Assembly: GCA_022710935.1 (NCBI GenBank)
Contig: JAKLFY010000016.1
Span: 1-64,000 of the forward strand
From: Verrucomicrobiota bacterium
GTDB taxonomy: Bacteria > Verrucomicrobiota > Verrucomicrobiia > Limisphaerales > J093
Reading direction: 5' to 3'
DNA length: 64,000 nt
The notes below the pieces were generated by a model, which worked only from the letters and a program-made list of their open reading frames with translations, did no database searches and was not told the origin of the DNA. Of the stretch, positions 3,960 through 64,000 are shown piece after piece. Position 1 is the stretch's first letter. Every line of letters starts with the position of its first letter. Made by a program: the position numbers and the translations under genes.

Positions 3960-4620
3960 TCCGCCGGAGGGGCGACGGCCTCGTCGCCCGCAAACAGGGT
4001 CCGCGGCTGCGATCGTGGGGGGACGAGGACGTCCCCGCTCCTGCGCCTTCGTGTGTGCGAGCAGAGCGCCGGAGAGGCGACGGCCTCGTCGCCCGCAAAC
4101 AGGGTCCGCGGCTGCGTTCGTCGGGGACGAGGACGTCCCCGCTCCTGCGCCTTCGTGTGTGCGAGCAGAGCGCCTGAGGGGCGACGTCCTCGCCGCCCGC
4201 AAACAGGGTCCGCGGCTGCGTTCGTCGGGGACGAGGACGTCCCCGCTCCTGCGCCTTCGTGTGTGCGAGCAGAGCGCCGGAGAGGCGACGGCCTCGTCGC
4301 CCGCAAACAGGGTCCGCGGCTGCGTTCGTCGGGGCCGAGGACGTCCCCGCTCCTGCGCCTTCGTGTGTGCGAGCAGAGCGCCGGAGGGGCGACGGCCTCG
4401 TCGCCCGCAAACAGGGTCCGCGGCTGCGTTCGTCGGGGACGAGGACGTCCCCGCTCCTGCGCCTTCGTGTGTGCGAGCAGAGCGCCGGAGGGGCGACGGC
4501 CTCGTCGCCCGCAAACAGGGTCCGCGGCTGCGTTCGTCGGGGACGAGGACGTCCCTGCTCCTGCGCCTTCGTGTGTGCGAGCAGAGCGCCGGAGGGGCGA
4601 CGGCCTCGCCGCCCGCAAAC
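3960..4620. repeat. Tandem array of a 104-bp unit, about six and a half copies
   Basis: The marker CAAACAGGGTCCGCGG (last copy degraded) recurs with starts at 3991, 4096, 4200, 4304, 4408, 4512 and 4616: spacing 105 once, then exactly 104 five times. Each unit holds two perfect short hairpins with 4-nt loops: GGCGACG-GCCT-CGTCGCC (first copy 3971-3988) and GGGGACG-AGGA-CGTCCCC (first copy 4019-4036). Copies differ by a few substitutions, for example the third copy has TCCT CGCC in the first hairpin. Since 104 is not a multiple of three and the unit lacks stops in several frames, long spurious open frames run through it on both strands. The first and last copies are partial. There are no unique spacers, so it is not CRISPR. 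Confidence 0.95.
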
Positions 4621-20549: not shown

Positions 20550-20648
20550 TCCGGCCCGAGGCGGATTCGAGATTCATCGGTTGAATGCGCGCGGGGACCG
20601 TGTCGCCAGTTGCCAATCGTCCTCCGAATCGCGAGAGTGGAGGCACGC

Positions 20649-22292
20649 ATGACGTTTCTCCCCGTCGTCGAGCGCGAGTTGCGCGTCGCGTCCCGCCGGC
20701 CCGGCACCTATTGGGGACGGGCGGCGGCGGCGTTGGTGGCGATTGTGCTGGGGGCTCATACCTTTGCCTTGAGCGGCGGCATGCCTTCGGTCCGGGTCGG
20801 CGGCCTCCTGTTCGGCACGTTCTCCTGGTTGGCATTTTTCTGGTGCGTTTTCACGGGCGCGCGGCACACCGCGGCGTGCATCAGTGCCGAGCGGCGCGAC
20901 GGCACGCTCGGTCTGTTGTTTCTGACTGACCTGAGGGGCTACGACATCGTCCTGGGCAAACTGGCGGCCAGTTCGATCGCGGCTTTCCAGGGGTTGCTGG
21001 CCTTTCTCCCCGTGATTGCCGTTCCGCTGCTCCTGGGCGGCGTGCTGGCGGCCCAGTATGTCCGGGTTGCCGCCGCGCTTGTGGCGACTGTGTTCTACTC
21101 GCTGGCGTTGGGCATGTTTGTGTCAACATGGTGCACGAACGACCGTCGCGCGACGACTCTGACTGGGCTTCTGCTTGCGACAGTGACGGCGGGGCCGTGG
21201 ATCGCTGCGAGTGTCTGGGCCACGATGCAGATGGGGGCCAACCCACCGGCCTACCTCCTTTGGCTGAGTCCGGCCTATATCCACCTGCTGGGCGTGCATG
21301 GCAGCTTCCCCGGAAGCGGCTGGGGCCATTACGGACTGGCGCTTGGCATCCTGATTGCCGAGGGCATTGCGCTGCTGGCGTTGACCAGCGCGCTGCTGCC
21401 GCGCCTGTGCCACGAGCGCGTCGCCTCCGCCCGGGGCGCGCGCTGGCGGGCTTTCTGGCGCAGGTGGTGTGAAGGATCGTCCGAGGCGCGCGTTCGCCAC
21501 CGGACCCAGTTGCTCGAAATGAATCCGTTTCTCTGGCTGGCGGCGCGGGGACGGGGCGGACCGGCGTACGTCTGGCTGTTCCTGGCGCTGACCTGTCTCG
21601 CGTTTGTGTGCATCTGGGTCTTTTTGACGGAGCTATGGTTGGAACTGGATCTGGCGCGCTACTTCATCCTGTCGACCTTTCTGCATGCCACGCTGCGGTG
21701 TTGGATTGCATTTGCCGCAACCCGGCAACTGGCGGAAGACCGGCGGACGAGTGCGCTCGAACTGTTGCTCTCAACACCGCTCGATGTCCCCCGCATTCTC
21801 GATGGGCAGTCCAAGGCTCTGGGACGCCAGTTCGCCAAACCGATCGTGGCTGTGCTCGTGCTCGACGCATTGCTCTGCTGGCGCATGTTCGGGCTGATGC
21901 CCTCGGAGACGGACTGGAATCTGACGATTCTGTTCTTCTCGGCGCGCGCCGTGATCCTCGTCGGAGACGCCTTTGCGCTGGGGTGGTTTGGGATGTGGCG
22001 GGCGATGACGGCGCGCTCGGCGACCGACGCGGCGACTTCGACCCTGTTCCGCATCCTGGTGGTTCCGTGGATTGTTCTGATCGCTCTGGGCGTGTTGCTA
22101 GCGACCACGAAGCCGTACCTGAACAGCGAGGACGTTTTTCAGTTGGCCGTGGTCGTCTGGTGTATGATCGGTCTGATCACGGATCTGATTTCGTTGAAAG
22201 AGGCGCGGCGGGGATTATCCGCGCGGTTTCGCCTGGCGGCGAGCGAACCACGCAAGCGGCCATGGTGGCATGGCCTTTCGAGCATCGCCTAG
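20649..22292 (+). CDS. ABC-2 type transporter permease
   Basis: Predicted 547-residue polytopic membrane protein with about 12 helices. It opens with FLPVVERELRVASRRPGTYW, the usual cytoplasmic start of ABC-2 type permeases, then has ERRDGTLGLLFLTDLRGYD, which fits the 'ER..GTLELLLTTP' coupling region of this family. A second such region, ADDRR-like LAEDRRTSALELLLSTPLDV, appears later, so two permease halves are fused. No ATPase gene is adjacent. The start at 20649 has GGAGG about 8 bp upstream; the frame extends a little further upstream (20610). The stop codon TAG (22290-22292) lies inside the terminal palindrome of the repeat at 22289-22360. Confidence 0.82.
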   Translation: MTFLPVVERELRVASRRPGTYWGRAAAALVAIVLGAHTFALSGGMPSVRVGGLLFGTFSWLAFFWCVFTGARHTAACISAERRDGTLGLLFLTDLRGYDIVLGKLAASSIAAFQGLLAFLPVIAVPLLLGGVLAAQYVRVAAALVATVFYSLALGMFVSTWCTNDRRATTLTGLLLATVTAGPWIAASVWATMQMGANPPAYLLWLSPAYIHLLGVHGSFPGSGWGHYGLALGILIAEGIALLALTSALLPRLCHERVASARGARWRAFWRRWCEGSSEARVRHRTQLLEMNPFLWLAARGRGGPAYVWLFLALTCLAFVCIWVFLTELWLELDLARYFILSTFLHATLRCWIAFAATRQLAEDRRTSALELLLSTPLDVPRILDGQSKALGRQFAKPIVAVLVLDALLCWRMFGLMPSETDWNLTILFFSARAVILVGDAFALGWFGMWRAMTARSATDAATSTLFRILVVPWIVLIALGVLLATTKPYLNSEDVFQLAVVVWCMIGLITDLISLKEARRGLSARFRLAASEPRKRPWWHGLSSIA

Positions 22293-22360
22293 CCCGCATG
22301 TTTACACCCCGTCCGTGCGCAGGGGATCAGATTTCGCATGATGTCTGCTATGCGGGCTAG
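22289..22360. repeat. Palindromic intergenic element, copy A (inverted relative to 61129-61202)
   Basis: Ends are a perfect 11-bp inverted repeat: CTAGCCCGCAT (22289-22299) and ATGCGGGCTAG (22350-22360). The inverse-strand core carries GCAGACATCATGCGAAATCT and then an inner hairpin of CCCC, an 11-nt loop and GGGG. The same core occurs at 61129-61202 in the opposite orientation. Outer and inner stems differ from the other copy by paired changes. The ABC permease stop codon (TAG, 22290-22292) is inside the terminal repeat. Confidence 0.9.
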
Positions 22361-22364
22361 GAAA

Positions 22365-22522
22365 GCAAAACCGCGCCCGAGTTGAGGGATGGAACCGGGC
22401 AACAGAGTGTCGCCGCACTCGCGAGGTTTCGGAAACGCTCCGAACCTCGTTTTTCCCTGTGCGGGCGCGGTTTTGCCACAGCCCGGACATCCGATCACGC
22501 GCAGCCCTGTAAATGTCCGGGC
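22365..22522. repeat. Cluster of further inverted repeats between convergent genes
   Basis: A perfect 15-bp inverted repeat, GCAAAACCGCGCCCG (22365-22379) with CGGGCGCGGTTTTGC (22462-22476), encloses a smaller stem around GAGGTTTCGGA. A second pair is GCCCGGACAT (22481-22490) with ATGTCCGGGC (22513-22522). Together with the element at 22289-22360 this fills most of the 300-bp gap between the permease and the glycosyltransferase, which are convergent. It could be bidirectional terminators or stacked REP-like elements; the stems are far longer than needed for termination. Confidence 0.85.
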
Positions 22523-22592
22523 TGGGGCCGCGATTGAATCCGGGCGCAAGCGGGAATGGACCGTTTGGGGTGTGGCCAACGCCCGTTGCTAT

Positions 22593-49142: not shown

Positions 49143-49539
49143 CGAGATCCTGGATCGGGTGACCGCGGCGGACCCGCGCTATCGGCCGGAGGCCTATCAC
49201 TTCCTGCGCGAGGCGTTGGACTATACCCAGCGGGCCATCAGCAAATCGAATCGGGGCAAGCTGCGGCACATCACCGGGCAGGAGTTGCTGGCGGGCATCC
49301 GGGCCTATGCCCTGGCGCAATACGGGCCGATGGCCCTGACCCTGTTCCACGAGTGGGGCGTGCGCTCGTGCGCCGATTTCGGCGAATTGGTATTCAACCT
49401 GGTCGACCAGAACGTCCTCGGGAAGACCGAGACGGACAGCCGGGCGGATTTTCAGGATGGCTACGATTTTGAAGAGGCGTTCCTCAAGCCGTTCCGTCCC
49501 CGCTCGCGTCCGAACTCCCGCGTTTCGCCGCGGTCGTAA
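49123..49539 (+). CDS. Verrucomicrobia/Planctomycetes-restricted small protein (TIGR04138-like)
   Basis: Predicted 138 residues starting MRTEDIDEILDRVTAADPRY. The features EAYHFLREALDYTQRAI, HITGQELLAGIRAYALAQYG, MALTLFHEWGVRSCADFGEL and VFNLVDQNVLGKTETD are those of the lineage-restricted family known as Minf_1886-like/TIGR04138. No function is established. The ATG at 49123 is preceded by GGAGA. It overlaps the preceding gene by 20 bp and is followed 24 bp later by the M16 peptidase, so it may be co-expressed. Confidence 0.85.
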   Translation: MRTEDIDEILDRVTAADPRYRPEAYHFLREALDYTQRAISKSNRGKLRHITGQELLAGIRAYALAQYGPMALTLFHEWGVRSCADFGELVFNLVDQNVLGKTETDSRADFQDGYDFEEAFLKPFRPRSRPNSRVSPRS

Positions 49540-61128: not shown

Positions 61129-61202
61129 CCAACCCGCATGGCAGACATCATGCGAAATCTGATCGCCCTGTGCACGGACGGGCTAGGAAAAATGCGGGTT
61201 AC
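61129..61202. repeat. Palindromic intergenic element, copy B
   Basis: Ends are AACCCGCAT (61131-61139) and ATGCGGGTT (61192-61200), 9-bp stem. The core GCAGACATCATGCGAAATCT followed by an inner hairpin GCCC, 11-nt loop and GGGC matches copy A at 22289-22360 in opposite orientation. On the minus strand the end reads GTAACCCGCAT, and TAA (61199-61201) is the stop codon of the cardiolipin synthase gene. Confidence 0.9.
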
Positions 61203-62665
61203 AGGATCGGCGTCAGGAGCCGCGCAACGCCGTCGCGAAGCCGCACGGGCAGACTGCGGGCGTCGACTTGGGAGAGCGTGATCGGCCGCGCCTGGCGCTG
61301 GCGTTCCTCGAACCAGGCGGCCAGTGTCCGGGCTAGGGCGGGGTCGTAGCATTCGACGTTGAACTCGAAATTGAGGCGGAGGCTGCGGGGATCCCAGTTT
61401 GTCGAGCCCAGGAGGGTCCAGCAATCGTCCACAAGAAGCAGCTTCGAGTGGTCAAACGGCGGCGGTGACAGCCAGAGCCGGCATCCGCGCTCGAGGACCT
61501 GCCACCAGTGGGCCGCCGACGCCCACTGCACGAAGGGCAGGTTGCTCCTCCCCGGCAGCAGGATGTCCACCGACACACCGCGGAGCGCCGCCAGATTCAG
61601 CGCGGCGATCAACGGCGCGTTTGGCAGGAAATACGGTGTCATGACACGCACGGTCGAGCGCGCCGCCCCCACGGCCCCCAGCAGAGTCCACTGCAGCACC
61701 TCGAAATCCTCGTCGGGACCGTCCGCCAGACCCCGCGCGAAGACGGCGCCGGCCCCTTCGAGCGGCGGAAACCAGCGTTCCCCGCGCAGGCGTTCGCCCG
61801 TGGTGAACAGCCAGTCCTCGGCGAAGACCTCCTGCAGGTGGGCCACCACCGGTCCCCGGAGCCGGAACTGGAGATCCTTCACCGGGTGCGCCGGTTTGCG
61901 TGCCAGGCAATGACCGACCCGCAGGTTCATGCCGCCCGTGAACCCCTCGCGTCCATCCACTACAAGCAGCTTGCGATGGTTGCGCAGGTTGATCGACACC
62001 AGTTGCCCGCGGGGGAATGCCGGGAGAAACCGGGCATAGCGAACGCCTTCCCGTCGAAGCACACCCAGAATGGACGGCCACGAATAGCGCGTGCCGGTGG
62101 CGTCGATGAGCACCCGCACCTGGACGCCCCGCCTCCGGGCGTCGCCCAGCGCGCGGGCAAACGCGATCCCGACCTCGTCGCGGTCGAAAATGTATGTCGA
62201 GAGCGTCACGGAATGCCGGGCGGCGGCGATGGCCTCGAGCATGGCCGGGAACGCGGCGTCGCCGTCGATGAGGAGGTCGACCTGATTGCCCGGCACCAGC
62301 GGACGCACGACGACTTCGTCCACCAGCGCGGCGAGCGTGACAAGGTGACGGCTCTCGGGAGGCAGATGCTGTTCAAGCGTTTCGGGCGCACAGGCAGGTT
62401 CGAGCCCGGGCGATCGGTAATGGTCTTCCTCTCCGCGCAGCAGCAGGGCCCGCCGCCGAATGCGGTTGACGCCCAGCATGAAGTAGAGCACCGCGCCCCC
62501 GAGCGGGAGCATCCAGATCAGGCCGGCCCAAAGCAGGGCGGAGCGCGGGTCGCGCTTGAAGAGAATGGCGTGAGCCGAGGCCAGCGTGGAAAACAGGACA
62601 GTGAAGCCGGCCAGAGCATACGGCCCAACATCGAGCAGCGCATCGAGTATCCCTGCAGTCGTCAT
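61199..62665 (-). CDS. cls: Cardiolipin synthase-type phospholipase D protein
   Basis: Predicted 488 residues. Start at MTTAGILDALLDVGPY (62665) with a G-rich segment upstream; ATG 62725 is an alternative. Two N-terminal membrane helices, then two HKD motifs: NHRKLLVVDGREGFTGGMN and FDHSKLLLVDDCWTLLGSTN, both complete (His-x-Lys-x4-Asp). Makes cardiolipin from two phosphatidylglycerols. The stop codon lies within the palindromic element. Overlaps neither neighbour; it is convergent with the MacB-like permease and divergent from alaS. Confidence 0.9.
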   Translation of the reverse strand: MTTAGILDALLDVGPYALAGFTVLFSTLASAHAILFKRDPRSALLWAGLIWMLPLGGAVLYFMLGVNRIRRRALLLRGEEDHYRSPGLEPACAPETLEQHLPPESRHLVTLAALVDEVVVRPLVPGNQVDLLIDGDAAFPAMLEAIAAARHSVTLSTYIFDRDEVGIAFARALGDARRRGVQVRVLIDATGTRYSWPSILGVLRREGVRYARFLPAFPRGQLVSINLRNHRKLLVVDGREGFTGGMNLRVGHCLARKPAHPVKDLQFRLRGPVVAHLQEVFAEDWLFTTGERLRGERWFPPLEGAGAVFARGLADGPDEDFEVLQWTLLGAVGAARSTVRVMTPYFLPNAPLIAALNLAALRGVSVDILLPGRSNLPFVQWASAAHWWQVLERGCRLWLSPPPFDHSKLLLVDDCWTLLGSTNWDPRSLRLNFEFNVECYDPALARTLAAWFEERQRQARPITLSQVDARSLPVRLRDGVARLLTPIL

Positions 62666-63032
62666 CGGCCCGCCCCAGACATACCCGATCAATCCCTGCG
62701 CGCAACTCGGAAACTCAGCCAGCATCACTGAGTTCGTTGCATCGGATTGTTGTCGGTCTTCTGTCGCCCGGTGAGGGCACCGGGCCTGCAACGGATCGGG
62801 ACTTCCGCTGTAGGCCGCCTGCCCCCAGGCGGCGCAAACTCGATTCCCACCGACAACCTCCAGATACACTGCACTGAGTTCAGGAAAGCAGTTTGGGATC
62901 GAGATTACGATTGCGATTGCGAGAGGTCGGGAAGGCTGAAAAACCTGAGATGCGCACCCGCTGCAGGCTAGGAATGCAATTCGACTGGCTTTTCCTGCGG
63001 CCCGCAGCCTATGCTGCGCCCCGTTTTTCGTA
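62666..63032. other. Divergent intergenic region between cls and alaS
   Basis: Apart from the hairpins at 62766-62833, it holds a short iterated GATTACGATTGCGATTGCGA tract near 62903. No gene or clear promoter is recognised. Confidence 0.4.
62766..62833. repeat. Two 8-bp stem hairpins with 4-nt loops
   Basis: GCCCGGTG-AGGG-CACCGGGC (62766-62785) and GCCGCCTG-CCCC-CAGGCGGC (62814-62833) are perfect stems 28 bp apart. Both have the size of the hairpins in the 104-bp array. They sit between divergent genes, so termination is unlikely. Confidence 0.85.
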
Positions 63033-64000
63033 TGACGTCCGTTGAAATCCGACAGTCTTTTCTCGACTTCTTCAGGTCGAAGCAGCACACCCTCGTGCCC
63101 TCCTCGACCCTGATGCCCGACGCGCCGAACCTGCTGTTCACCAACGCCGGCATGAACCAGTTTGTGCCGATCTTCCTGGGGCAAAAGGCGCCGGACGTGA
63201 GCCGGTGGGCCGGCGCTGTTCCCGGGCTCGACACGCGCGCCGCCGACACACAGAAGTGCATCCGGGCGGGCGGGAAGCACAATGACCTCGAAGACGTCGG
63301 CCTGGACACCTACCACCACACGTTCTTCGAGATGCTGGGGAACTGGAGTTTCGGGGATTACTTCAAGGAGGAGGCCATTGCGTGGGCGTGGGAGCTGGTG
63401 ACGGGCGTTTGGAAGTTCCCCAAGAACCGGCTCTACGCCACGGTGTACAAGCCCGGGCCAGGCGATCCGAGCGAATTCGACCTCGAAGCCTACAAGCATT
63501 GGGAACGCCTGTTTGTCACCGCCGGTCTCGATCCGAAGGTGCATATCTGCACCGGCGGCAAACAGGACAATTTCTGGATGATGGGCGAGACGGGCCCCTG
63601 CGGCCCGTGCTCCGAACTGCACGTCGATCTGACGCCGGACGGCGACACCCAGGGTGCGCTGGTGAACAAGGGCAGCGCACGATGCATCGAGATCTGGAAC
63701 CTGGTGTTCATCCAGTTCAACGCGAACCCCGACGGCACATTCTCGCCGCTCCCGGCCCGGCACGTCGATACCGGCATGGGCTTCGAGCGGGTGACGGCGA
63801 TCATTCAGAATACCCGTGGATTCACCGATTTCAGCCGCGTGATCTCGAACTACGAGACGGACATCTTCCGCCCCCTCTTCGACCGGCTCGAACAGGTGAG
63901 CGGCCAGCGCTATGGGTCGACGCTGCCTCCGGCAGGATCTCAGATCTCAGATTTGGAACCTCAAATCGCCGCGGATGTGGCTTTCCGGGTGATCGCGGAT
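63033..64000 (+). CDS. alaS: Alanyl-tRNA synthetase (5' part, cut by window end)
   Basis: The first 322 residues are present, starting [20 protein letters not shown]. The class II core is clear: [72 protein letters not shown] and [13 protein letters not shown], with [13 protein letters not shown]. It runs off the window, so the editing and C-terminal domains are not seen. It diverges from cls. Confidence 0.95.

Follow-up and report, generated by a model that had tools for sequence, protein, structure and literature searches.

A High-Copy Palindromic Element Family Located at Gene Stop Codons in One Verrucomicrobiota Genus

Introduction

Bacterial MITEs such as ERIC/RU and the Correia elements are non-autonomous, are 100–250 nt long, have inverted repeats and short end duplications, and often lie near gene ends. 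Small mobile sequences have been reviewed (PMC2229807). REP units measure 20–40 bp, or 21–65 nt in PMC6006769. The terminus of GTAG REPs often supplies the TAG stop codon of the flanking ORF, the verrucomicrobium O. terrae is rich in GTAG-tagged REPs, and CGTC REPs have been reported without a transposase as well (PMC3733652). Class 3 TnpA-Y1 proteins go with atypical REP-like structures that have the 5' foot CnGA, of which Solibacter usitatus has about 600 copies (PMC6006769), and the repeats associated with TIRYTs have GGGGWSAS ends (PMC3733652).

The element described here was noticed in a 64,000-nt stretch (the window), which is contig C68, positions 1–64000, of the draft genome G000 (7.52 Mb, 259 contigs). 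Most comparisons are with G001 (4.8 Mb), a sister species and the sole other member of the genus compared; both are MAGs, 94–96% complete. Labels of the form L130 denote stretches of DNA taken from G000 or G001.

The preliminary description held that the element resembles no known repeat type, which is overstated: it is indeed a multi-copy palindromic family, and it resembles REPs and MITEs. Like GTAG REPs, their dimers and BIMEs, it consists of high-copy, extragenic palindromes at gene 3' ends (142 copies), occurs in modular combinations, is species- or genus-specific, and can have its terminus serve as a stop codon. It differs from them in that the hairpin unit is 74 nt rather than 20–40 bp and the composite about 237 nt, in having CTRR at both ends, as direct repeats in the composite, instead of the GTAG (GT[AG]G) or CGTC foot (109 copies), and in using all three stop codons; no RAYT or TnpA-REP gene with its ends was found at the 19 Y1 loci of the two incomplete MAGs. 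The structures of class 3 TnpA-Y1 proteins share with it the high copy number, the atypical form and a tetranucleotide foot starting with C, and the CTGA end fits CnGA, but most copies have CTAA or CTAG, no Y1 gene is flanked by units of the element, and the G000 and G001 proteins read contain no class 3 Y motif. With ERIC/RU and Correia MITEs it has in common size, inverted repeats, non-autonomy, end duplications and gene-end location; unlike them, it often replaces the host tetranucleotide rather than duplicating it and contains internal hairpins with conserved loops, and no parental IS for it was found at the loci searched. The TIRYT repeats present in the same genomes are unrelated to it in sequence and flank Y1 genes (L041, L047, L162, L174), whereas its own units do not. 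The element works like a REP and a MITE, while departing from REPs in tetranucleotide, size and RAYT and, as tested, from MITEs in the parental IS. REP ends acting as TAG stops are already known; what differs here is the size, the composite build, the three stops, the direct repeats and the absence of an associated transposase at the loci searched.

Results and Discussion

Structure of the Element

Both copies previously described in the window were confirmed, together with the 24-nt core GCAGACATCATGCGAAATCTGATC identical in the two and their outer arms, AGCCCGCAT/ATGCGGGCT in one and AACCCGCAT/ATGCGGGTT in the other. Copy 1 is a real hairpin, but it forms no more than the left-hand third of a larger element, 237 nt long, that has two more hairpins. 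The features of the window are as follows.

22289..22360, + strand: unit A, copy 1, a 72-nt hairpin CTAGCCCGCAT...ATGCGGGCTAG with first bases C-TAG
22290..22292, + strand: stop codon inside C-TAG of copy 1, ending the ORF 20610–22292
22365..22476, + strand: unit B, a long hairpin GCAAAACCGCGCCCG...CGGGCGCGGTTTTGC
22480..22523, + strand: unit C, a hairpin AGCCCGGACAT...ATGTCCGGGCT
22289..22525, + strand: the entire composite A+B+C, 237 nt, left end CTAG, right end CTGG
61129..61202, − strand: unit A, copy 2, a 74-nt hairpin without B or C
61202..61199, − strand: GTAA, left end of copy 2, containing the TAA stop of the ORF 61199–63763(−)
49536..49539, + strand: GTAA, an empty site, containing the TAA stop of the + strand ORF ending at 49539

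Across the family, unit A is 71–77 nt long and consists of CTARCCCGCAT, a variable interior and the closing arm ATGCGGGYTAG; the conserved stretches of the interior are CACCCCGTC.GTGCACA, GTCAGAYTTCGCA and ACTGCTATGCGGG. Between about one-fifth and one-third of the A copies run on into B (GCAAAACCGCGCC...GGCGCGGTTTTGC) and C (AGCCCGG...CCGGGCTAR), giving a full form of about 237 nt (A 74 nt, B about 110 nt, C about 45 nt). Copies consisting of A only or of A+C are common as well, as are truncated ones, and related A-like or C-like hairpins occur on their own. The left end of A resembles the reversed right end of C (CTTAGCCCGSATATTTCA-like), and these two ends share about 14–16 nt as terminal inverted repeats. 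Most of the 109 copies studied end in CTAA, CTAG or CTGA, with GTAA and GTAG rare.

A covariance model of unit A (R1), built from an alignment of 35 complete copies, found 142 copies in G000, a number far beyond chance, and at least 95 in G001, while each of 38 further relatives gave at most 4 weak matches; one blastn search by itself already gave 41 matches. The copies of A are dispersed singly across many contigs. The family is therefore a genus-level expansion, its high copy number being specific to one Verrucomicrobiota genus.

Folding and Covariation

Copy 1 folds better than shuffled sequence as RNA (z of −3.7 and −4.1), as does copy 2 (−2.3 and −2.4); as DNA, the window copies gave z values of −1.9 to −3.2, and the unit B region 22366–22478 gave −4.1 as RNA and −4.2 as DNA.

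The compensated change proposed earlier for the outer stem holds at pair 4, which covaries strongly (G-C in 51 of the 109 copies, A-T in 51, other in 7), the remaining stem being mostly just conserved. Pairs 2 and 3 change jointly in a few copies (CTGA...TCAG), and pairs 5–9, nearly invariant in sequence, say little on structure for that reason. In unit C, three stem pairs covary via several compensated pair types (20 copies). The C-G to G-C swap in the inner stem, the second compensated change of the preliminary description, distinguishes only the two window copies, the pair being unformed in 31 of 35 copies of the family. Mismatches of the G.T and A.C kinds are equally common (16 versus 14, stop-codon pairs excluded), and selection on the RNA strand therefore lacks support. 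The more general proposal of selection for structure rather than sequence is not borne out, given the invariant pairs 5–9, an inner stem that is no family feature and these mismatch counts.

The same data bear on a possible role of the hairpins as structured RNAs at mRNA 3' ends (stabilizers, attenuators or terminators) kept by selection and spread as gene-end modules. This would agree with a hairpin directly 3' of the stop, with the many copies between convergent genes, with fold z values of about −2 to −4, and with the effect on translation of E. coli REPs at most 15 nt from the stop (PMC12306157, citing earlier work). However, G-U is not in excess over A-C on the transcribed strand, decayed arms are common among the copies, Rfam 15 covariance models at the gathering score gave no match within the window, and the sister genes are without the element at most compared sites; we regard such a role as improbable.

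The paired changes may also be a by-product of replication, if template switching between the arms alters both without selection for folding. This is a documented non-selective route (PMC8794818, PMC7202029) and is compatible with the other explanations. It is consistent with covariation that is limited to the arm tips (pair 4, rarely 2–3) in an otherwise conserved stem, and with the orthologous copies of L103 and L144, which differ in both arms at once (CTGA..TCAG versus CTAA..TTAG). On the other hand, the right-end repeat of C in L103 changed in concert with A, which is not a hairpin-arm event, and the pair-4 state tracks the tree of interiors beyond chance, with at least 18 changes against 34 with shuffled labels on a tree from short interiors that is weakly resolved. 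Most copies therefore inherit their pair-4 state, and template switching is a possible but somewhat doubtful source of the paired changes. The state is mostly inherited by subfamilies, yet it has been switched repeatedly. The base that covaries at pair 4 doubles as the third position of the stop codon, and the far end of the composite repeats it in direct orientation; inheritance in subfamilies or copying by template switching therefore explains the covariation equally well.

Position Relative to Stop Codons

Gene ends were called with a codon-usage scorer trained on the DNA analyzed, for 109 copies that are mostly the best-scoring ones and not a random sample. In 57 of these, the stop codon of the upstream gene is exactly bases 2–4 of the element (C-TAA, C-TAG or C-TGA); altogether, 60 genes end inside the element, 57 at the exact left end and three elsewhere. 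Many copies sit between convergent genes, and in 18 of the 109 the stop of the convergent gene coincides with the other end of A. A stop lies at either end in 66 of the 109 copies and at both ends in 9, where the 74-nt element spans from stop to stop of the two convergent genes. If CTAA and CTAG sites in intergenic DNA and at stop codons were hit equally, the expected share at stops would be 0.18 (p ~ 1e-15). Counter-selection at other sites can add to this excess, and active targeting is therefore not proven. Insertion might be steered actively to stop codons of all three types (TAA, TAG and TGA), the shared stop of convergent pairs included, with the element's own stop replacing that of the host and with an enzyme of a kind not yet linked to REPs moving the family; we consider this unlikely.

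Sites without the Element

Syntenic stretches of G000 and G001 are 92.4% identical, and their comparison shows a mobile element with precise insertion junctions. The sister stretch L130 has a full A+B+C of 235 nt exactly at the empty GTAA of window position 49536. Conversely, the 237-nt composite at window 22289 faces only the four nucleotides CCAG in L203 (...GTCGC-CCAG-GGCCGCGATTGA), where the sister gene extends four codons more, to a TGA, and the A copy at window 61129 faces only CTAA in L130. Further pairs are L140 (A alone, 70 nt net) against CTAA in L106, the A+C copy L156:9639, with CTAA on both sides, against CTAA in L194, and the copy of L002 against CTCG in L192. At convergent site #31, the two species have composites in opposite orientation, and this site has therefore undergone repeated occupation or inversion. 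Deletion could account for some of the "empty" sister sites; one in L149 (CTAGCCCGCATGACC) keeps CTAGCCCGCAT and looks like a deletion scar.

The sister tetranucleotides were taken from the alignments by eye; at 15 of 18 empty sites they consist of a single base followed by a stop codon. They equal the left tetranucleotide of the element at 4 of 18 sites, compared with 38 of 46 control stops without the element (p = 1e-5); the stop codon alone is identical at 7 of 15 versus 42 of 46 (p = 6e-4). As a target-site duplication identical to the empty site, the tetranucleotide is clean in L156:9639/L194 (CTAA) and differs in window 22289, L002, L007 and most copies of A alone. The element therefore generally brings its own stop.

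To our knowledge, single-base resolution of the insertion sites is rare among REP-like families. In these two sister species, the roughly 18 comparable sites show that such an element can insert at a stop codon and leave the genes unharmed, itself providing the stop for the gene on one or both sides. Landing on stops explains how a genome densely packed with genes can accommodate hundreds of hairpins, and why changes in the arm bases go together with changes in the stop codons.

Direct Repeats and the Mode of Movement

In 17 composites, the right and left tetranucleotides agree in all four bases in 10 and in the fourth base in 16 (p = 4e-4). Sites that are orthologous or reoccupied differ in a concerted way: L103 reads CTGA...TCAG...CTGA, as compared with CTAA...TTAG in L144 of G000, and L191 (CTGA) stands against L146 (CTAA...CTAA). 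Left end, arm tip and right end agree with one another. The fourth base also agrees with that of the sister site in five of five intact composites, and in about half of the other copies.

The data are best explained, with middling confidence (a grade that includes the general claim of a mobile element), by a mobile DNA element of the REP/MITE type, palindromic and non-autonomous, that is moved in a HUH/REP-like manner. The sites compared show that insertion is clean at a tetranucleotide, which in most cases consists of a gene's stop codon and the final base of the sense codon before it, and that the CTAA, CTAG or CTGA of the element then acts as the stop. The model for the movement is the action of TnpA-REP/IS200-type HUH enzymes on REP hairpins: a trans-acting enzyme would recognize A and C as folded single strands that carry a CTRR foot at the hairpin base, and would join them to targets resembling CTRR. 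Insertions at stop codons would be favored because the gene is left whole. Matching arm bases would be kept because mobility depends on the hairpin, or else through copying of one arm from the other during replication.

Several points speak against this explanation: the direct CTRR end repeats look more like a target duplication, while head-to-head REP dimers would be inverted; no Y1 locus of G000 or G001 carries adjoining A or C ends; the Y1 motifs read are not of class 3; and deletion may have produced some of the sister sites taken as empty. The direct repeats could instead mark a MITE of a DDE-type insertion sequence, in which CTAR/CTGA (or TAR, TA) would be the duplicated target site and RCCCGSATATTTCA, at the inverted ends of both A and C, the TIRs. 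The agreement of the composite ends, the sequence that A's left end shares with the right end of C in reverse, and the match of the sister site's fourth base to both ends in the five intact composites all fit this explanation. Nevertheless, the base of the element differs from that of the host in about half of the copies without an intact C, and the tetranucleotide is therefore not simply copied from the target; moreover, unit A alone has inverted ends (CTAA...TTAG) rather than direct ones, and the DDE_3 and DDE_Tnp_1 loci of both genomes are without these ends, the parental IS not being found there. We consider a DDE-type MITE rather unlikely and rank it second, since it accounts for the direct repeats of composites but not for the replaced host bases. 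HUH-like movement, ranked first, accounts for the hairpins, the feet and the loose target choice, but not for the direct repeats.

Search for the Moving Enzyme

The sampled Y1, DDE and integrase genes are all without the ends of the element. None of the Y1 transposases (PF01797; 12 in G000 and 7 in G001) is flanked by A or C. The one copy near a Y1 gene (L046) lies about 800 bp off, past another gene, and in five genomes the association of the ends with RAYT/Y1 genes was at background density only. The Y1 motifs read in G000 and G001 match or approximate Y[VI]HLNP. Several Y1 genes bear TIRs of the GGGGWSAS type, as in TIRYTs.

Only stray ends were found at the loci of DDE_3 (3 genes, IS630/Tc1) and DDE_Tnp_1 (14 genes, IS4/IS5) in both genomes and at about half of the 67 tyrosine recombinase matches, those checked. 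Unit C lies 200–3000 nt 3' of A in two cases only, and no indel of 0.6–7 kb between the species, in the sequence sampled, is an autonomous element bounded by A and C ends. An enzyme gene missing from both MAG assemblies is possible but not likely. A transposase partner, for which the preliminary description proposed a test, was thus absent from the Y1, DDE_3, DDE_Tnp_1 and tyrosine recombinase loci sampled; equally, with no sampled transposase gene bearing these ends, the element does not appear as a fragment of a known insertion sequence.

The tyrosine recombinases also bear on a likeness to the attC sites of integrons, which a tyrosine recombinase uses as a folded strand, with the stop codon in the R-box. 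Size and fold are similar, attC in integron cassettes often follows or overlaps the stop, and G000 has many tyrosine recombinases (53 matches). Half of the copies, however, end in CTAG without the AAC/GTT core; the copies are single and scattered, with no arrays of cassette genes, and the recombinase loci examined carry stray ends only. An integron-like nature is largely refuted by the missing core (RYYYAAC/GTTRRRY) and is highly improbable.

Other Repeats in the Two Genomes

A-like subfamilies with other interiors (CTAGCCTGCAT..., GAGCCCGCATGTCTCATGGAGTCGTGACC...) occur at L202:1290–1500, L046:2100–2340 and L149:11457–11590; the A-like copy of L202, with TTAG at both ends, sits on the same stop codon as the A-type copy L142:8690 of G000. 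Inverted repeats TGGGGTCACATCTTCATTTTTGACA or ATGGGGTCGCATCTATATAGTTGACA of the TIRYT type surround the Y1 genes of L041, L047, L162 and L174 and are repeated elsewhere. At least three adjacent tyrosine recombinase genes are clustered on each of the G000 contigs C3, C43, C131, C183 and C200, as in a recombinase-in-trio (RIT).

A stretch of 3 kb (L104:8400–11500 and L150:1262–4335) is 99–100% identical between the genomes, compared with 92% elsewhere, which means either that it was transferred recently or that the MAGs were cross-binned.

Another repeat of high copy number, about 140–260 nt long, has GTTGTCGGTG close to one end and CACCGACAAC close to the opposite end, contains internal hairpins and is polymorphic between the species (L158:7786–8017, L149:15023–15289, L144:5444–5581, L166:2974–3290). 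A third, bounded by CATGAACC...GGTTCATGG and likewise with internal hairpins, shows species-specific indels (L149:8389–8593, L153:383–435, L155:19695 versus L129:8723). Window 3966–4460 contains four repeated segments of about 78 nt within a predicted ORF, with matches at two or three other loci.
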